DNA from: Lysobacter sp. BMK333-48F3
GTDB taxonomy: Bacteria > Pseudomonadota > Gammaproteobacteria > Xanthomonadales > Xanthomonadaceae
NCBI RefSeq assembly: GCF_019733395.1
Contig: NZ_JAIHOO010000001.1
Coordinates: forward strand, 1,302,001 to 1,366,000
Length of the DNA: 64,000 bases
Direction of reading: 5' to 3'
A program made the translations under genes and the position numbers. Positions within the stretch are counted from its first letter, which is position 1. Every line of letters begins with the position of its first letter. Positions 1 through 13,430 of the stretch are shown piece after piece. The notes below the pieces were generated by a model. The model searched no databases. It was not told where the DNA came from and worked only from the letters and a program-made list of their open reading frames with translations.

Positions 1-326
1 GGATCGAGTTGCTGCAGCCGGCCCAGCGTCACCACCGCATTGTCCGGCTCGCCCGGCAGGCGGGCGCGGCTGCGCCGGGTCGCGGCCAGGGCGCTGCGGT
101 AGACCTCGGCCAGGCGGAACGGGCCGCCGCGGGCGAGCGCGCCCTTGAACAGCACCGGGCGGCGGTCCCAGTCCTCGTCGGCGAAGACCTCCCAATCCAG
201 CGCGTCGCGTTCGATCGGCGCTTGCGGCGGCAACTCGGGCCGCGCGGTTTCCGGCGTCGCGCGCTCGAACGCTACGGTTTCCGACGTTGCGGTCTCCAAC
301 GATGCGCGCTCGAACGATCCGTTCAT
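1..326 (-). CDS. JmjC/cupin-8-like protein, N-terminal part only
   Basis: About 108 residues are visible before the window edge cuts the gene. After an acidic, Glu/Thr-rich leader of about 38 residues comes a stretch reading LDWEVFADEDWDRRPVLFKG, which resembles the start of JmjC/cupin-8 hydroxylases, where a Trp and an R-P-[VL] motif precede the barrel. The metal-binding H-x-D/E would lie beyond the edge, so activity cannot be judged. The ATG overlaps the stop of the upstream gene (ATGA at 323-326), which implies translational coupling in the same operon as the LanM-like dehydratase. If intact, it would be an Fe(II)/2-oxoglutarate oxygenase that could hydroxylate the small peptides of this operon (inference). 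Family call moderate, role uncertain. Confidence 0.6.
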   Translation of the reverse strand, partial: MNGSFERASLETATSETVAFERATPETARPELPPQAPIERDALDWEVFADEDWDRRPVLFKGALARGGPFRLAEVYRSALAATRRSRARLPGEPDNAVVTLGRLQQLD

Positions 327-1507
327 GCCGGCACCCGCTCGCGCTGGATCGCGCGCAGATCGTGCAGCCTTTGCAGCAACGCGAGCAGGCCCGGATCGAC
401 ACGCCGCCGCGGACCGGCGCACAGTTGCGCGACCGTGGCCGGCGCGCCGCCTTGCAGCGCCTGCAACAGCGCGTCCACGCGCGGATGCACCGGCATCGAG
501 AACGCATGGCCGTTGACCGCCCACCACTCGCGCTCGCCGTCGGCCAGGCGCAGCAAGGGGCTGCGCCGGTCCAGGCCGACCCGGTCGGCGGGCGCCAAGG
601 GCTCTTCGCGCGGCGCGGGCACCGGTTCCAGGCCTGCGGCGCTGGCGCGCGCGGCCCAGCTCGCACGCAGCGCGCGCTGCAGATCGCCGCCGGCCACCGC
701 CGCGCGCATCTGCGCGGCGACCTGCTGCAGCGGCGCGATCGCGGCGCGGCCGCGCGGCGGGAAGTCGAGCATCGCCACCTGCGCCTGCTCGCCGAGTTCG
801 GCGTCCACCAGTTCGGCCAGCACATCCTTGACCGCCACCGCCGCTGCTTCGCCGCCGACCGGCACGCTCACCGCCAGGCCCAGGGTCGGGCCGAGATCGG
901 CCTCCTCGACCCAACCGGCTTCGGGCCAGTACAGCGCCTCGCCCGCGACCGCGCGCAGGACCCGCGCCGGCGCGCCCCCGGCGCGCGGACGCGCGCGCCA
1001 GCAGCGCACTTCGCTGCCGCCCAGCAGCGGCAGGCGCAGGCTCGCCGCCGCCGGTTCGAAGCGCGGCCCCAGCGTGCCGGCGTCGGCCTCGCCCAGCCAC
1101 AGCTCGGCGGTCAGCGCCAGGCTCGGCTGTCCGAAGCGCTCGAACAGCCCCGCCAGCGCCTCGCGCGCTTGCGCCCACAGCGCGTAGTCGAGGAACAGCG
1201 GCTGGGTCACCCGCAGTTGGAAACCGCGCCCGTCCAGGCGCGCGCGCACCCGCGCCACATAGCCGGCCGCATCGGCATCGTCCGCGCCGGGCAACAGATC
1301 GCCCGGTGCGCGCATCCAGCCGCCGTCGACGTAGAAGCGCACGTCGGGCAGGGCCAGGAAGCGGGTGCCGGCGCGGAACGGTTCGGCCGCACGGCGCACC
1401 AGCGCGTAAGCGCTCGCGGGGTCCAGGGCCGGCGCCGCGCCCGCCAGGCGACAGGCGCGGCGGCGCCAATGCGTCTGCAGGCCGCTCCAGTCGATCGGCG
1501 CGCTCAT
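323..1507 (-). CDS. Degenerate JmjC/cupin-fold protein with C-terminal winged helix
   Basis: 394 residues. Residues 130-215 follow the JmjC/cupin-8 pattern: LTAELWLGEADAG, then a P-L-L-G-G-S-E-V-x-C-W strand, then EALYWPEAGWVEE where the family has a G-D-x-L-Y-x-P-x-G-W-x-H strand. The expected iron ligands are missing: R149-F150-E151 sits where H-x-D/E is usual, and E201 sits where the distal His is usual. A catalytic oxygenase is therefore unlikely. Residues 315-394 read like a small winged-helix domain, as at the end of ribosomal oxygenases or in PqqD-type peptide-binding domains. A peptide-binding or scaffold role in the operon is plausible (inference). Start chosen because its ATG overlaps the stop of the dehydratase gene (ATGA, 1504-1507). 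Confidence 0.65.
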   Translation of the reverse strand: MSAPIDWSGLQTHWRRRACRLAGAAPALDPASAYALVRRAAEPFRAGTRFLALPDVRFYVDGGWMRAPGDLLPGADDADAAGYVARVRARLDGRGFQLRVTQPLFLDYALWAQAREALAGLFERFGQPSLALTAELWLGEADAGTLGPRFEPAAASLRLPLLGGSEVRCWRARPRAGGAPARVLRAVAGEALYWPEAGWVEEADLGPTLGLAVSVPVGGEAAAVAVKDVLAELVDAELGEQAQVAMLDFPPRGRAAIAPLQQVAAQMRAAVAGGDLQRALRASWAARASAAGLEPVPAPREEPLAPADRVGLDRRSPLLRLADGEREWWAVNGHAFSMPVHPRVDALLQALQGGAPATVAQLCAGPRRRVDPGLLALLQRLHDLRAIQRERVPA

Positions 1508-3900
1508 TCGCGCGCCGCCGCGAACTGGCCGTGGATGCGCGCGGCGTAGTCGGCCAGCGGCTCCAGCCCCATCGCCCGGCGGCGACGGTCGACCTCGCGC
1601 GGACGTTCGATCGGGCAGGGTTCGAAGCCCTCGTCGCGGCGACGGAACTTGGTCCCGTAGCGCTGCTTGCGCCCGCGCTGCACGCGCAGGGCGTCGGTCA
1701 GATAGGCCAGCTCGCGCAGGCTCATGTCGCCGTCGCGCGCCGCCGCGGCGATCAAGCGCAGGCAACGGTCCTGGAACGCGCGCGGCCCGTCGGCGTGCTG
1801 GAGCAGACGGCAAGCCGCTGCGGCCGCGGCGTCGCCGACCCGCGCGCGCCCCGGCCAACCGTGGCGTTCGACCACCGCCTGCAGCCAGGCCATCGACTGC
1901 TGCACATGCGCCTGCAACTGCGCCTCCAGCGCGGCGTCGGCGAAACCGCCGTCGGTCCACGGCGTGCGCAGGGCCGCATCGATGCGGTCGATGCGCAACA
2001 ACCGCTGCGCTACTGCGCCGGCGTCGTCCTGGTTCGCCTCGTCTTGATTCGCCTCGACCGCCTCGACGGGCTGCGAAAGCGCCTCCACCCGCAGGCTCAC
2101 CTCGTCGCCCTGCCAGCGGCAGACCACGCGCCGGTCCTGACGCGCCCAGTCGAAAGCCGCTTCGCCGTCCTGCGCGCCCAGCCAGTGCAGGCGCACGCCC
2201 AGGCGCGGATCGTGCAGTTCGCCGCAGCGGCCGTGCGCGGCGCTCAGATCGGGCACCACATGAGCGACCGCATCGCGAACCGCCACCGCCAGGTCGAGCA
2301 AGTCGAAGCCTTCGCCACGACGTCGCGCCGGCTGCGGATTGAGCCGTTCGCGCGGCTGCGGCAAGGCGCCGCGCACGCGCAGCGCCGGGCCGCTGGCCGA
2401 CGGCGGCCGCATCAACAGCGGCGCATCGCCGTCCAGTCGGGTATAGAAATACGGCACGTCGCCGCAACGAAGTTGCGCGCGTTCTCCGGCGATGTAACCG
2501 CGCAGGTCCGGCGCCGTCGCGGCGTGCGGGTCCAGCGCGGCGGCGTATTCGGGCGTCGGCCGCAGCAGCACCCGGGTGCGGCGCCCGCGCAGGCGCGTGC
2601 GCAGCGCCGCGCGCAATTCGTCGCGATGCAGGTGCAGGCGCATCCACAACTCGAACAGGCCGCGCAGGAACTCCAGCGGATAGGCGCCGTAGCCGACCCG
2701 GCCGGCGCGATCGGCGACCAGGCCGGGCGCCTGCTCGCGCCGCCACGGCCGCGCCACCGCGCGCAGTTGCGCGCCGCCGTCGTCGCGGTCGAAGAAGGCC
2801 CAGTCCGGTCCCTCGCTGTCGCCGCGCGCGGCATCGCGTTCGAACCCGGCCGGATAGCGGCCGCGATCGCGTTCGCCGACGGTCAGCCCGGTGTCCTCCA
2901 GCCGCTGCACCGGAAACAGGCAGACCTCCAGGTCCACCGGCAGCAGTTGCGGCCGGCCCTGGCGCAGCCCGCAGACCAGGTTGCCCGGCCCCAGGTCGAC
3001 CAGGCCGAGGCCGAAACAGGCGCCGGCCAGGGCGCCGGCATCGCGCCACAGGCGCCGCGCCTGGGCGCGGCCCAAGCGCGTCGCACGCAGGCGGCGGCCG
3101 CGCAGGCGGCCGTAGCCCGGCGGCGGCGCGATCCATTCCTGCCACAGGTAATCGCGGTCGCGACCGCGGCCATGAAAACTGTTCAGCGTCGGCAGCCGCA
3201 CCGCACCGGGCCCGCCGGCCAGCGCGTTGATCCAGGCGAATACGCCGTCGTCGCCGAGCAGGGCGATCTCGGCATCGGCCGGACGCGGCTTGTAGGCCAG
3301 GACCACGCCGTTGGCCCAACTCGCGCGCAGCACGCGCTGGCCGCCGTGGTGGGTTTCTTCCGGATGCGCCCACAGCGCCGTCACCGGGCCGTCCACGCCG
3401 GCGTGCGCGGCTAGCGCGCCGCTGCGCAGATCGCGCGCCAAGCGGCGCGCAAACGCTCCCAGGAACCGGCGATGGCGCTCGCGCAGGGCGCGCAGGCGCG
3501 CGGCCAGGCGCGACCGGCGCGGCGCCAGGCACCAGTGCAAGGCCAGGTCCAGCACCGGCGCGTGCAGTTCGCCGTTGTCGAGCGCGAGCGCGGCCGGCCG
3601 CACCCGTGCGGCGTGCGCGCGCGCCAGCGCGGCGCAGTCGCGGTCGAGCGCATCGAGGAAGGCCAGCCACGGCGCCAGGCGCGCATCGCGCAAGGCATCG
3701 CCGATGCGGCGCGCGGCGCGTGCGCCGCGCCAGGGGCGCAGCGGAACCAACAAACCGTCGTCGCCCAGGCGCGCGCGCGGCGGCCACCACCAGGCGATGC
3801 CGCCTTCGGCGACCGCGGCCAGCAACCGACGCGCGGCGGGCGATGCCGGCGCGTCGACGGCCCCGGGCGCGGGCGGCAGATCCAACAAGGATTCGCTCAT
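1504..3900 (-). CDS. LanM-type dehydratase domain without cyclase, DUF6624-like tail
   Basis: 798 residues. The first ~620 match the DUF4135 dehydratase half of class II lanthipeptide synthetases. Visible motifs are THHGG at 183-187, YKPR at 203-206, DLGPGN at 302-307, PVDLEV at 321-326, R443..T449 in RVLLRPTPEY (the spacing of the Arg/Thr elimination pair), and CGDVPYF at 479-485. Gly304 occupies the place where LanM enzymes usually have His in D-x-H-x-x-N, so the kinase step may be altered. There is no LanC cyclase domain. Instead, about residues 630-795 resemble DUF6624 (LAYLTDALRV, KQRYGTKF, CPIERP, GLEPLADY). The expected activity is phosphorylation and elimination of Ser/Thr in the peptides encoded just upstream (inference). 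ATG at 3900 preferred over an upstream in-frame TTG at 3918; no clear ribosome site for either. Confidence 0.8.
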   Translation of the reverse strand: MSESLLDLPPAPGAVDAPASPAARRLLAAVAEGGIAWWWPPRARLGDDGLLVPLRPWRGARAARRIGDALRDARLAPWLAFLDALDRDCAALARAHAARVRPAALALDNGELHAPVLDLALHWCLAPRRSRLAARLRALRERHRRFLGAFARRLARDLRSGALAAHAGVDGPVTALWAHPEETHHGGQRVLRASWANGVVLAYKPRPADAEIALLGDDGVFAWINALAGGPGAVRLPTLNSFHGRGRDRDYLWQEWIAPPPGYGRLRGRRLRATRLGRAQARRLWRDAGALAGACFGLGLVDLGPGNLVCGLRQGRPQLLPVDLEVCLFPVQRLEDTGLTVGERDRGRYPAGFERDAARGDSEGPDWAFFDRDDGGAQLRAVARPWRREQAPGLVADRAGRVGYGAYPLEFLRGLFELWMRLHLHRDELRAALRTRLRGRRTRVLLRPTPEYAAALDPHAATAPDLRGYIAGERAQLRCGDVPYFYTRLDGDAPLLMRPPSASGPALRVRGALPQPRERLNPQPARRRGEGFDLLDLAVAVRDAVAHVVPDLSAAHGRCGELHDPRLGVRLHWLGAQDGEAAFDWARQDRRVVCRWQGDEVSLRVEALSQPVEAVEANQDEANQDDAGAVAQRLLRIDRIDAALRTPWTDGGFADAALEAQLQAHVQQSMAWLQAVVERHGWPGRARVGDAAAAAACRLLQHADGPRAFQDRCLRLIAAAARDGDMSLRELAYLTDALRVQRGRKQRYGTKFRRRDEGFEPCPIERPREVDRRRRAMGLEPLADYAARIHGQFAAARE

Positions 3901-3961
3901 CGGGCCGCGTCGCCGCAACCGCGACGACGCGGCCGGCGCGAGGCGCCGGCCGCGGGGCCGA

Positions 3962-4114
3962 TCACGGAATGCAGTAGATGCGGCGGCAGGTGGCCGGCAC
4001 GAAGCTCGCGCCTGCGGCGGCCTGCTTGCGCAGTTCGCCGATCGCCAGCGCCGGCACGGCCTGGCGCTGCTTGGTTGCGGTGGACGGGGCGGGCTTGGAC
4101 TTCTTCATCTTCAT
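3962..4114 (-). CDS. Candidate RiPP precursor peptide 1
   Basis: A 50-residue peptide starting MKMKKSKPAPSTATK and ending ASFVPATCRRIYCIP. It has a strong ribosome site (AAGGAG, 8 nt before the ATG). The basic and Ala-rich first ~35 residues look like a leader, with a possible helix around AIGELRKQAA. The end holds Thr42-Cys43 and Cys48, so a dehydrated Thr and two thiols are available for ring formation. It lies 61 nt upstream of the LanM-like gene on the same strand. Its C-terminus aligns with that of the neighbouring peptide (AS-aromatic-x-P-x-[ST]-C-x-R-x-IYC). No double-Gly cleavage site is obvious. The coding call rests on the ribosome site, operon position and shared motif; the product is unknown. 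Confidence 0.75.
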   Translation of the reverse strand: MKMKKSKPAPSTATKQRQAVPALAIGELRKQAAAGASFVPATCRRIYCIP

Positions 4115-4178
4115 CGGACCATCTCCTTGGGCAGGTGACGAGCCGCGACGCGGGCGCGCCGCGGTCAGGGGCGCAGGA

Positions 4179-4334
4179 TCAGACGCAATAGATGAAACGA
4201 CTGCACGAACGCGGCGCGTACGACGCCGAAGCCGGGATCGGCTTGCTCAACGGCTGCGGGGTCGGTTCGAGCTTGACGCGGGTGGCCGGCGCAACGGCCG
4301 GCGCGGACGCTTTCGCGGTGGCGGCTTGCTTCAC
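4179..4334 (-). CDS. Candidate RiPP precursor peptide 2 (GTG start)
   Basis: A 51-residue peptide with a GTG start and a good AAGGAG site at 4342-4347 on the complementary strand. It begins MKQAATAKASAPAVAP and ends SASYAPRSCSRFIYCV. The leader is rich in Ala, Pro and Lys. The final 14 residues share the AS-[FY]-x-P-x-[ST]-C-x-R-(F)-IYC pattern with peptide 1 although the leaders differ, which indicates selection on the C-terminal core. Candidate modifiable residues are Ser36, Ser38, Ser43, Ser45, Cys44 and Cys50. It is the first gene of the minus-strand operon and is separated from peptide 1 by 64 nt. It is shorter than common gene-calling cut-offs. Confidence 0.75.
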   Translation of the reverse strand: MKQAATAKASAPAVAPATRVKLEPTPQPLSKPIPASASYAPRSCSRFIYCV

Positions 4335-4398
4335 GGTGGCTCTCCTTGAGTACGCGTTGGAACGCGCGGAGCGGCACCGTCGGCGACTCCGCGCACGA

Positions 4399-4447
4399 AC
4401 GCTTCGCGGCGCAACGCGCGTACCTCCGTACGCCCGCGGCGAAGCGT
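4399..4447 (-). promoter_or_regulatory. Nested hairpin in the presumed leader of the peptide operon
   Basis: Two nested inverted repeats lie 65-113 nt upstream of the first peptide start. The outer 9-bp arms are at 4399-4407 and 4439-4447; the inner 6-bp arms at 4418-4423 and 4428-4433 close a 4-nt loop that reads GGAG on the transcribed strand. It could be a leader RNA structure or an operator. The function is not shown by the sequence. Confidence 0.35.
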
Positions 4448-4663
4448 CCCGACTCTAGCCCATGCCGACGCCACGCCCGCCAGCGGGCGCGCAAACCGTG
4501 AGCGGCTTCGCAAGCTTCGCCCCGGCGTCGGATCGGGCGCGACCGGGGCCGCGACCGCTGACGATGATGGAAAGCCTGGAAAACAAGGGAAATACGCCGG
4601 CGGCCAACGCCGCGATGACCGATCGGACTATGTGCGCCCGCAGCATCGCGCCACGCACCGCTT

Positions 4664-4705
4664 TCCCGATTCCCGATTCCCGATTCCCGAATCCCGAATC
4701 CCGAA
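4664..4705. repeat. Heptanucleotide tandem repeat (CGGGAAT/CGGGATT)n
   Basis: About six imperfect copies of a 7-bp unit, the first half reading TTCCCGA and the second half ATCCCGA, so the tract is partly self-complementary. It abuts the 3' end of the ydcF-like gene. Confidence 0.8.
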
Positions 4706-5389
4706 TCACCGAATCCGCTCGAGCATCCGCCGATTGCCGATCAGTTGCGCCCAGCGCGCGCCGATGTCGCTCATGCATACGTAGGCGGCCTCGCCGGCCA
4801 GGCGCAGCAGCATGCGCGGGCTCAGCCGCAGGCGCGGCTCGGCCGCGCACAGCTCCCAGTCGTAGCCGAGCTGGCGCGCGAACAGGGCGCAGCGCGCCAG
4901 GTGATAGCGGCTGCTGAGCAGGGTCACCCGCGTACGCATGCCCTCGCCGAGCAGGACCCGCGCATTGCGCAGGTTCTGCAGGGTGTCGCGCGATTCGGCT
5001 TCCAGCCGCAGCGGCGCGTCGGCCGACAGGCCGCGTGCGAGCAGGCCGGAACGGGCCAGTTCGGCTTCGGTCGGCTCGTCGTCGGCGCCGCCGCCGAGCA
5101 GCACCACGCTGGCCGGCGGACGCTCCCGCCACAGCGACACCGCGCGGTCCAGGCGCGCTTCGAAATCGTGGTCCAGGCGCCCGCCCGGCGCGTGCTTGCC
5201 GAACAGCAGCACGCATTCGCCGCGCTCGGGCTGGCACGGCGCATTGCGCGCCACCCGCAGCACGTGGACGAAGTAGCCCACGTAGACCAGGCCGGCGCTG
5301 AGCACGCAGGCGGCCGAAGCCACCGCCGCGACGTGCAGCACGTCGCGGTCGCCGAACAGCGACAGACGATGGGACAGGCGACTGCTCAT
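4706..5389 (-). CDS. YdcF/SanA-like DUF218 membrane protein
   Basis: 227 residues. One membrane segment lies near residues 18-42 (HVAAVASAACVLSAGLVYVG), followed by a DUF218 domain. This shows the family's pattern of a strand-Gly core (ASVVLLGGGADDE), then T-E-A-E-x-A, then E-S-R-D-T-L-Q-N, then SSRYHLARC. Members such as SanA, ElyC and YdcF act at the cell envelope; the reaction is unknown. It stands between the peptide operon and the pigment cluster and reads on the same strand as the peptide operon, without obvious coupling to either. Confidence 0.75.
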   Translation of the reverse strand: MSSRLSHRLSLFGDRDVLHVAAVASAACVLSAGLVYVGYFVHVLRVARNAPCQPERGECVLLFGKHAPGGRLDHDFEARLDRAVSLWRERPPASVVLLGGGADDEPTEAELARSGLLARGLSADAPLRLEAESRDTLQNLRNARVLLGEGMRTRVTLLSSRYHLARCALFARQLGYDWELCAAEPRLRLSPRMLLRLAGEAAYVCMSDIGARWAQLIGNRRMLERIR

Positions 5390-11098: not shown

Positions 11099-13430
11099 GC
11101 GCGTCCTCCGCCGCGGCCGCCGGCTCGCGCACGATCAGCAGGGCCAGTACGAAATTGAACGCTACGCCGAGCGCGACCGTCGCGCCGATCGCGCGCAGCA
11201 CCGGAATCGAAGACAGCGCCAGCAGCGCGAACACCATGAACGTGGTCAGGCTGCAGACGATCACCGCGTGCAAGGTGCGCAGTTGTTCATTGCGGTCGTC
11301 GCCGGCGTGGTCGAAGAACAGCGCGTAGTCCAGGCCCAGGCCGGCGGCGAGGATCAGCGAGACCAGGTGGAACAGGTTGAGCTCGACCCCGGCCAGGCGC
11401 AGCACGGCCAGGATCAGCAGGGTGGTCAGTGCCATCGGCGCGAGCACGCGCAGCACCCGTCGCGGCGAGCGCAGCGCGATCCACACCGCCGCGGCCAGCA
11501 GCACCGCGGCCAGGGCCAGCGCCATCAGCACCCGGCCGCGGTAATCGGCGACCAGCGATTCGGAGGCCTGCTTGAGGTCGAGCAACTGGCCGCCGTGGCG
11601 GCGCGCCGCCGCCGCGACCGCGACCGGATCGGCCAGTCCGGTCAGCGAGACCAGCGCGGTGGCGTGGCCGGGGCGCTGCAGCAGCAGGCCTTCGACGCTG
11701 ACCGCCAGCGGCGTCCCGGCGAGGTCGCGCGCGCTCAGCGGCGGCGCCTGCCGCGCGCGCTCGACGTCGGCGAGAAAATCGGCGAAGGCGTCGCTGCGGA
11801 ACGGCGTGGCGGCGAGCGCCGTCTCCAACGCTGCATCCAGCGCGGCGGCCTCCGGCAGACGCTGCTGGCGTTCGCGCTGGGTCCTGGCGCTGGGCAGGTA
11901 ACGCGCGGCCAGGTCGTAGCCGGCGATCGCGCCTTGTTGGCGCAGCGCGGGCAGTTCGGCCATCAACGCTTCGGAGGCCTGCAGCGCGGCTTCGGCGTCG
12001 CCGCGTTCGATCGCCACCACGTAACGCACGTCGGGCGCGCCGAGCTCCTCGCGCAGTTGCGCGTCGCGCGCCAGCGCCGCGGCCGGCACCGGGGTCAGCT
12101 TGGCCAGGTCGTTCTGCCAGAACGGTCCCGGCACGAACACGATCGCCGCCAGTGCCAGCGCCGCGATCGAGGCGCTGCCGGCCAGGCCGATCCGCGGCCA
12201 GCGCGCCAACCGCGTCCAGGCCCGCGCCAGCCACGGCGAACCGGCGGCGTCGCGCGGCGCGGGGTCGATCAACGCCGGCAGCGCGAAGCGCGTGGCCAGC
12301 GCCGCGGTGGCCAGGCCGACGATGGTGAACACCGCCAGCTGCTGCAGGCCGTCGACGCCGGACACGAAGAAGGTCAGGTAGGCGATGCAGGTCGAGACCA
12401 CGCCGGTGCCCAGCGTGGGCCACAGGCTGCGCGCGCTGGCCCACGGCGACAGCCCTGGCCGCTGGTGGCTGAACAAGTGGATCGGATAATCCTGGACCAC
12501 GCCGATCAGGGTGAAGCCGAAGGCGACGGTGATGCCGTGCACGCCGTCGAACATCGCCGCGACCGCGCCCAGGCCGGCCAGGCCGGCGGTCGCCAGCGGC
12601 AGGCCGCCGAGCAGCGGCACCTTCCAGCTGCGGTACGCCAGCCACAGCAACAAGGCGAAGACGATGCCGTCGATGGTGCCGATCAGGCTGGCCTCGCGCT
12701 GGGTGCGGCCGCCGATCTCGACCGAGAACGCGCCCGGGCCGCTGATCGTCAGCTGCGCCGGGCTGCCGCCGCGGGCTTGCGCGAACGCGCTGCGGATCGC
12801 CTCGATCGCCTGCTGCTGGCCGGTGGGATCGAAGCCGGCGGCGCGGGTTTCCACCGCCAGCAAGGCCTGCCGCCCGGCGCGGTCGAACCACACCCCGTGC
12901 AGGGTCTGCGGCGCCTGCGCCGGTTGCCAGGCTTCGGCCAGGCGCAGCATCTCCAAGGTCGGATCGCTGGGCAGCAAGGGCTCGATCAGCTCGCCGGCGG
13001 GCGAACCCAGGTCTTGCAGCCGCTGCTCGAGCTGGTCGCGCAGGTAGTCGGCGTCGAAGGCCTGTTCGTCCAGGGTCGGCGACAACAGATAGCGATACGG
13101 GCGCAGGCGCTCGGGCACCGCGTCCAGGCCTTGCCCGGCGCCGTTGGCGACCAGCTTGAATCCGGGCTGCGCCGCCAGCGTGTCGCGCAACGCCGCCGAT
13201 TGCGCGGCCAGGGTCGCCGGATCGTCGCCGTCGATCGCCAGCAACAGCAGGCGCGAGCCCGGGCCTTCGCCGAGTTCGTCGATCAGCAGTTTCTGCGCCG
13301 GGGTCTGCGCGGTCGGCATGAACCGGCGCAGATCGCCGCTGAGCTGCAGGCGCTGGCCGATCGCCCAGCCGGCCACGGCCAACGCGGCCAGCCACAGCAG
13401 GGCCAGCCCGATCCGGCGCGCGGGCGTCAT
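11085..13430 (-). CDS. MMPL/RND-type exporter of the aryl polyene cluster
   Basis: 781 residues, with the layout of the MMPL branch of RND transporters: a membrane segment near residues 7-25, a periplasmic loop, a block of five to six membrane segments (about 250-400), a second loop and a second membrane block at the end. Motifs include GTIDGIVFALLLWLAYRSW and GVVQDYPIHLFSH in the first block, and GLGLDYALFFDHAGDD in the second. These place Asp residues in the membrane as in proton-driven RND pumps. Clusters of this kind use such a protein to move the finished aryl polyene toward the outer membrane. The start codon overlaps the stop of the LolA-like gene (ATGA). Confidence 0.85.
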   Translation of the reverse strand: MTPARRIGLALLWLAALAVAGWAIGQRLQLSGDLRRFMPTAQTPAQKLLIDELGEGPGSRLLLLAIDGDDPATLAAQSAALRDTLAAQPGFKLVANGAGQGLDAVPERLRPYRYLLSPTLDEQAFDADYLRDQLEQRLQDLGSPAGELIEPLLPSDPTLEMLRLAEAWQPAQAPQTLHGVWFDRAGRQALLAVETRAAGFDPTGQQQAIEAIRSAFAQARGGSPAQLTISGPGAFSVEIGGRTQREASLIGTIDGIVFALLLWLAYRSWKVPLLGGLPLATAGLAGLGAVAAMFDGVHGITVAFGFTLIGVVQDYPIHLFSHQRPGLSPWASARSLWPTLGTGVVSTCIAYLTFFVSGVDGLQQLAVFTIVGLATAALATRFALPALIDPAPRDAAGSPWLARAWTRLARWPRIGLAGSASIAALALAAIVFVPGPFWQNDLAKLTPVPAAALARDAQLREELGAPDVRYVVAIERGDAEAALQASEALMAELPALRQQGAIAGYDLAARYLPSARTQRERQQRLPEAAALDAALETALAATPFRSDAFADFLADVERARQAPPLSARDLAGTPLAVSVEGLLLQRPGHATALVSLTGLADPVAVAAAARRHGGQLLDLKQASESLVADYRGRVLMALALAAVLLAAAVWIALRSPRRVLRVLAPMALTTLLILAVLRLAGVELNLFHLVSLILAAGLGLDYALFFDHAGDDRNEQLRTLHAVIVCSLTTFMVFALLALSSIPVLRAIGATVALGVAFNFVLALLIVREPAAAAEDAHAHA

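Follow-up and report, generated by a model that had tools for sequence, protein, structure and literature searches.

We describe here a five-gene operon of Lysobacter sp. BMK333-48F3 that looks, from the sequences of its genes, like the representative of an undescribed family of ribosomally synthesized and post-translationally modified peptides (RiPPs). It lies on the minus strand at one end of the window, the 64-kb stretch of DNA that was analysed (G000:C1:1302001-1366000 of a 5.23-Mb genome). Its genes A1, A2, B, C and D encode two candidate precursor peptides, a synthetase in which a LanM-type dehydratase domain is followed by a DUF6624 domain at the position of LanC, and two homologous proteins of the JmjC type. 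The interpretation that we consider probable is that these genes constitute a self-contained cassette in which B dehydrates a Ser or Thr of the peptide core and C and D oxidise that core. A sequence-only reading of the same DNA had already proposed a RiPP-type operon of five minus-strand genes with ATGA overlaps and two precursors. The operon is confirmed, one overlap lying between B and C and another between C and D, and conserved small open reading frames (ORFs) accompany the homologous dehydratases in 52 of the 53 loci compared; their absence, which that reading had named as a refutation, was not observed. As a whole, that earlier interpretation is partly supported.

Precursor peptides

A1 (4179..4334, minus strand, as are all the genes of the operon) is a peptide of 51 amino acids with a GTG start preceded by AGGAG, and it ends in the core SCSRFIYCV (motif S-C-S-R-F-I-Y-C-V, 4182..4208). 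A2 (3962..4114, 50 amino acids) ends in TCRRIYCIP (motif T-C-R-R-I-Y-C-I-P, 3965..3991). Homologous loci were collected by a scan of genome contigs, which gave 48; removal of six duplicates (L046, L047, L049, L078, L079 and L080) left 42, and the addition of the window's own locus and ten others brought the set to 53, with the near-identical pairs L036/L037 and L087/L093 retained.

A first regular expression for the core missed seven of the 48 loci; six of these were recovered, four of them by three-frame translation, and the seventh, L091, is truncated where its contig stops. Applied to all 53 loci, the final pattern, [ST]C.{1,5}YC.{0,6}$ at the C-terminus, found small ORFs with the motif [ST]C-x(3-5)-YC, 69 altogether and 63 of them unique, at one to three per locus. 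L091, which begins inside B, is the sole locus without a precursor. When all six frames of the 751,830 bases of these loci were translated, exactly 69 matches of at least 25 amino acids appeared, every one on the operon strand; five passes over first-order Markov random sequence yielded none, and in the six frames of the 64-kb window the motif occurs at A1 and A2 only. The idea that these are chance small ORFs was rejected on these grounds. Since Ser/Thr, Cys, Tyr and Cys are prescribed by the pattern itself, it accounts for part of their invariance, and the informative part of the test is that a match is found in every uncut locus and nowhere else.

Among the unique precursors the gap between Cys and Tyr is of three (37), four (24) or five (2) residues, the motif begins with Thr (45) or Ser (18), and exactly two Cys are present in 47. 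An Arg occurs within the gap in 38 of the 63 and is thus not invariant. The strict C-terminal motif of the sequence-only reading, [ST]C.R.?IYC, was rejected as a family signature. A leader stretch of the form [LIVMF][ILVM]Gx[LMIV][EQRDS], for example LDLVIGDLE, is found in 45 of the 63; the pattern is not matched in the window's genus, whose A2 leaders show IGEL, IGEM or LGEV. Within that genus all eight loci agree in the last 12 residues of A1 while four of their codons vary synonymously, including AGC/TCG switches for Ser, which argues for selection on the peptide. The corresponding 12 residues of A2 have seven variable sites in the same eight loci, with the motif residues fixed. Two different precursors stand in tandem in L052, L057, L069 and L072 and three in L063 and L070, all outside Lysobacter, which suggests multi-component products or diversification.

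The synthetase

B (1504..3900, 798 amino acids) matches DUF4135 (PF13575) with 57.7 bits against a cut-off of 29, and its first 600 or so residues are predicted to fold like the LanM enzymes CylM and LicM2. This dehydratase region comprises residues 17-601 (2098..3852; model ranges 17-573 and 18-601), and the structural-match rows cover mainly residues 88-554, so that the fold assignment applies to this part of B. Pfam finds no LANC_like (PF05147) match in B, and residues 631-787 (1540..2010), at the LanC position, instead match DUF6624 (PF20329) with 53 bits against a cut-off of 27; nor does Pfam reveal a class III-type cyclase domain behind DUF4135, the C-terminus being DUF6624. The same architecture is seen in most of the B rows compared, with PF05147 in none of 43 B rows at E 0.01 and PF20329 in 40 of them, the other three being L082 (a split gene) and two short proteins. 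The suggestion that B is a LanM-like dehydratase devoid of its LanC half is supported, although it overlooked the domain that occupies the vacant position. That a LanC had merely been missed at the window edge was rejected, since B ends in DUF6624 and the only LANC_like domain of the genome is about 2.4 Mb away. Database records call the family's proteins "DUF6624 domain-containing" or "DUF4135 domain-containing" and, once, "type 2 lanthipeptide synthetase LanM"; the B profile found no match among PDB sequences in an hmmsearch.

Seven of the nine catalytic residues of the CylM type are kept in B, D252 being replaced by Glu and H349 lost. The kept residues include the phosphate-elimination positions H254, R506 and T512 (CylM numbering). 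In its C-terminal domain B retains the common DUF6624 pocket (Q701-H702, D736, Q746, G749 and R773-R774) and adds two residues that distinguish it from 20 other DUF6624 domains drawn from genomes of the same family: C713, present in 52 of 53 B rows, where the 20 have Val, Ala or Met, and K751, present in 51 of 53, where all 20 have Gln. According to excerpts of PMC13097080, DUF6624 has a high frequency in four groups of graspetides. It also travels as a gene cassette: on an IncN plasmid, dfrA1 and aadA1 flank a DUF6624 gene that stands alone (L095:3944-4489), the three following a class 1 integron integrase, and the annotated neighbours of three plasmid-borne DUF6624 genes have no common theme.

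The JmjC-type proteins

Only the N-terminal part of D lies within the window (1..326); the remainder (G000:C1:1300926-1302000) extends 1.07 kb beyond its left edge and ends at G000:C1:1300926 (L003 12926), which gives a protein of 466 amino acids. D matches JmjC_2 with 29.8 bits against a cut-off of 22, and its HxD...H iron triad is intact in 49 of 49 rows, a set that omits L036, L068, L076 and L086, whose D is absent or truncated where a contig stops, and includes L042 as a piece. The row that L068 had supplied for D proved to be a C sequence. In L042, around position 13170 (G017:C41:50400-51669), D is split over two reading frames, through an assembly error or a real frameshift.

C (323..1507, 394 amino acids) matches no Pfam family on its own at E values up to 1. 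It is homologous to D (profile-profile E 2.3e-58), and its structure model (pLDDT 90.2) aligns with YcfD over the whole length in Foldseek and VIA-align, so that it has a predicted fold of the YcfD/NO66 type. The first His of the triad is found in none of 51 C rows (8 gaps), the Asp in 2 and the last His in 26, and most of the residues that are fixed in D are also lost. C is, from these sequence counts, probably a non-catalytic partner; the earlier description of two JmjC-type proteins fits as regards homology and fold and not as regards the iron ligands of C. The C-terminal domain of C (within 323..1507) is modelled as three strands, within residues 309-339, followed by three helices, within 344-383; in view of the whole-length alignment with YcfD this may be an ordinary winged helix rather than a RiPP recognition element (RRE).

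Elsewhere in the same genome (L115:6554-7831; G000:C1:55553-56830) there is a gene for a second protein of the JmjC_2 family, which shares 30% identity with D across the matched stretch; this gene adjoins a methyltransferase-like gene and genes resembling those for nonribosomal peptide synthetases (both judged by eye). Matches of this second type were seen in two further genomes of the genus.

Distribution of the operon

The loci of the contig scan belong to Streptomyces, Kitasatospora, Nonomuraea, Kribbella, Plantactinospora, Catenulispora, a Nocardiopsaceae bin, Luteimonas, Lysobacter, two Lysobacterales/Lysobacteraceae bins and one Myxococcus. In the window's own family 63 of 297 genomes match B, of which only 10 (this one included) do so over the full length, the rest matching DUF6624 only; within the genus, B is present in 8 of 20 genomes, again counting this one. 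Among 299 genomes drawn from the phylum (E <= 1e-30, at most three candidates scored per genome) full-length B was found in this genome only and DUF6624 alone in six others.

C stands beside B in 51 of the 53 loci, and the count for D is 49; the four loci named above, which end at contig ends, account for the exceptions. The gene order is mostly A-B-C-D, with A-C-B-D in the Luteimonas loci and in G087, and Myxococcus has a split version of B. The flanks differ among the Lysobacteraceae, with one setting in the window's genus and another in G087; G106 and G248 have settings of their own, with one flanking gene, differently placed, in common. In the B tree a branch with support 100/99 separates the 36 Actinomycetota rows from those of Lysobacteraceae and Myxococcus, so that there is no sign of recent exchange between phyla; long branches leave the placement of L082 unsure. 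One record of Nonomuraea gerenzanensis (L098, NZ_LT559118.1:7438149-7452539), 11.85 Mb in size and filed as a plasmid though evidently a chromosome, carries a B that is 82% identical to that of L060.

LanC beside and away from the operon

The sequence-only reading had held the cyclase to be absent, which is right for B itself and requires amendment for one group of loci. A standalone LANC_like gene lies directly past D in 17 of the 53 loci by tblastn, the same 17 being found with 12 different LanC queries; three of them, checked by Pfam, scored 152-156 bits. They are exactly the loci with a longer core, NSGSGT[AS]CG[ST]C..xYCC, apart from the cut-off L076. All 18 long-core loci, with their extra Thr/Ser-Cys pairs, fall in a single Streptomyces/Nonomuraea clade (100/100), and the gain of LanC accordingly counts as one event, not 17. 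None of the 34 other precursor loci has a LanC past D, 30 of them with at least 2.4 kb of sequence there; L036, L051, L068 and L086, as well as L076 and L091, are too short on that side for a verdict.

The single LANC_like domain of the BMK333-48F3 genome is contained in a class II LanM (DUF4135 plus LANC_like, 944 amino acids; G000:C1:3683089-3685923, L004:10090-12924), which by eye adjoins a glycosyltransferase-like gene. LANC_like occurs in neither G106 (a bin, 97% complete) nor G248 (75% complete), both of which carry the operon.

A proposed pathway and its alternatives

The gene set, its conservation, the folds and the status of the catalytic residues are the computed foundation of our proposal; what we infer from them is the chemistry, namely dehydration by B, hydroxylation of the core by D, the partnership of C and the binding of the leader. 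Each of A1 and A2 would have a leader followed by a C-terminal core of very few residues, [ST]-C-x(3-5)-Y-C. Through its lipid-kinase-like LanM dehydratase fold, B would phosphorylate the invariant Ser/Thr that adjoins the first Cys and dehydrate it to dehydroalanine or dehydrobutyrine; one of the two invariant Cys would then probably capture the dehydro residue, with no LanC domain involved. The DUF6624 domain might position or finish the core, or be needed for dehydration in the manner of the zinc-less cyclase domain of CcaM (excerpts of PMC10676384). D would act as an Fe(II)/2-oxoglutarate oxygenase of the YcfD/NO66 type, paired with its catalytically dead paralogue C, and the winged-helix or RRE-like end of C may hold the leader. 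The YcfD/NO66-type branch of the JmjC proteins is known for beta-hydroxylation. Since Ser/Thr, Cys, Tyr and Cys are the only fixed positions of the core, the invariant Tyr would be the likeliest site of hydroxylation, and it or a neighbouring residue is our first guess.

Several observations weigh against this proposal. At the position of CylM His349, in the DxH motif, none of the 52 B rows that reach it has a His; the H349A mutant of CylM is slow yet nearly complete after 10 h (PMC4550811), so that the loss may weaken catalysis by B without excluding it. On its own, the DUF4135 domain excised from CcaM is inactive, whereas the corresponding domains of CylM, HalM2 and NukM are functional, as excerpts of PMC10676384 relate. 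LANC_like is present elsewhere in the genome in 8 of 10 related genomes that were searched, as it is in the one studied here, and the correlation of LanC with the long core amounts to one clade and one evolutionary event. DUF6624 is found far from RiPPs as well, in the integron cassette and among unrelated neighbours, and so is no RiPP marker. Finally, genes for transport, leader cleavage or immunity do not recur next to the cassette (BLAST clusters, with some flanking genes scanned by Pfam), which is unusual for a secreted RiPP; the product may therefore remain intracellular or leave by household exporters.

One alternative is an ordinary class II lanthipeptide system in which another LanC or LanM of the cell supplies the cyclase in trans and DUF6624 is a passenger. 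The LANC_like genes past D in 17 loci and those of the related genomes, with the LanM at C1:3.68 Mb in our own, favour this reading; we think it unlikely, since 12 queries found no nearby LanC in the 30 other loci with sufficient sequence, since G106 and the only 75% complete G248 have no LANC_like at all, and since the extra Thr/Ser-Cys pairs are confined to the LanC clade, as if LanC served those and not the invariant motif. That B might be no dehydratase, acting as a peptide kinase or core-binding protein while the real chemistry consists of oxidation by D and a Cys-Cys disulfide, would suit the vanished DxH His and the prevalence of precursors with exactly two Cys. We hold this to be unlikely too, given that the retained elimination residues, with D252 as Glu, would be needless in a bare kinase and that a Ser/Thr precedes the first motif Cys in 69 of 69 precursors, even if the search pattern fixes it. 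The notion that the small ORFs are not precursors, or that the genes are chance neighbours, can draw on nothing except the shortness of the ORFs and the GTG start of A1; with all 69 matches on the operon strand, an empty random control and the same gene set in different contexts and three phyla, its probability is negligible.

The proposed cassette also admits a bolder and more specific version, a new class of thioether- or dehydro-peptide RiPP. Here the role of LanC in finishing the core would have passed to DUF6624, either as a LanC-independent ring former or as an equivalent Cys/Tyr-directed catalyst with the clade-specific C713 and K751 in its conserved pocket; a heteromeric active/dead JmjC pair would beta-hydroxylate the invariant Tyr, and LanC would have been recruited secondarily, in the one Streptomyces/Nonomuraea clade, for the closure of extra rings alone. 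We offer this version tentatively, as rather unlikely to hold in all its parts.

Relation to known systems

The sequence-only reading knew of no described class with this gene set, and searches aimed at it in the open-licence PMC literature, to which most subscription papers and bioRxiv preprints do not belong, found none. With the LanM enzymes CylM and LicM2, B shares the DUF4135 dehydratase domain; it differs in having DUF6624 instead of the LANC_like half, no DxH His and Glu for D252, and its operon differs from LanM systems in the JmjC pair, the lack of a recurrent transporter and the minimal core of about 7-9 residues. A parallel is the dehydrazole enzyme CcaM ("LanMbC"), in which, according to excerpts of PMC10676384, a LanM-type DUF4135 domain is likewise fused to a partner that is not a working zinc LanC; there the partner is a class III-type cyclase domain without zinc residues, accompanied by a YcaO pair, whereas B has DUF6624 and JmjC proteins. 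No recurrent YcaO or ATP-grasp gene turned up among the flanking genes of our loci, which were not searched with YcaO or ATP-grasp models.

DUF6624 occurs with RiPP enzymes in graspetide clusters (groups 18, 20, 23 and 42), and paired oxygenases, SmaO/SmaX, in group 18. The core enzyme of these clusters is a graspetide synthetase and an NHLM-type transporter is frequent in groups 18, 20 and 23 (PMC13097080, in part), whereas here DUF6624 is fused to a LanM dehydratase. D shares the HxD...H triad and the JmjC_2 family with YcfD, NO66 and MINA53, and C shares their fold over its whole length; a JmjC protein of a RiPP pathway, the biphenomycin protein BipG, appears under the heading "ornithine hydroxylase" in PMC12707348. 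What sets our case apart from all of these is the presence, next to a LanM-type enzyme, of two paralogues of which one is catalytically dead. PMC12710340 mentions JmjC proteins that have RRE-like domains and occur in RiPP-like contexts; DUF4135, DUF6624 and cupin are absent from its main text. A Lysobacter survey (PMC11451712, in part) counted 72 clusters for class II lanthipeptides, whose 27 unique precursors comprise 21 of DUF6229 and six others.

Earlier lanthipeptide mining, as far as excerpts of PMC7268733 go, was anchored on LanC-like proteins, and most of this family would consequently be passed over. An enzyme whose DUF4135 domain has a natural partner other than LanC, its split Myxococcus version and its LanC-bearing clade together form a natural experiment on the respective roles of LanC and DUF6624. 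A core of fewer than ten residues with four fixed positions makes the chemistry easy to test, and the operon offers a testable context for DUF6624, flagged in part of PMC13097080 as a possible undiscovered biosynthetic enzyme.

Flanking genes and other features of the window

The upstream neighbour of the operon is a DUF218 gene on the same strand; past D, a regulator gene with XRE and cupin domains, read from the opposite strand, is followed by a beta-lactamase-family gene in the orientation of the operon. Homologues of all three adjoin the operon in other loci of the genus. An Rfam search, a promoter scan and a comparison with phage records gave no match, and terminator-like sites numbered one against 0.9 expected. 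Between the DUF218 gene and A1, at 4660-4710 of the window, there are short tandem repeats of the type GGGATTCGGGAATC.
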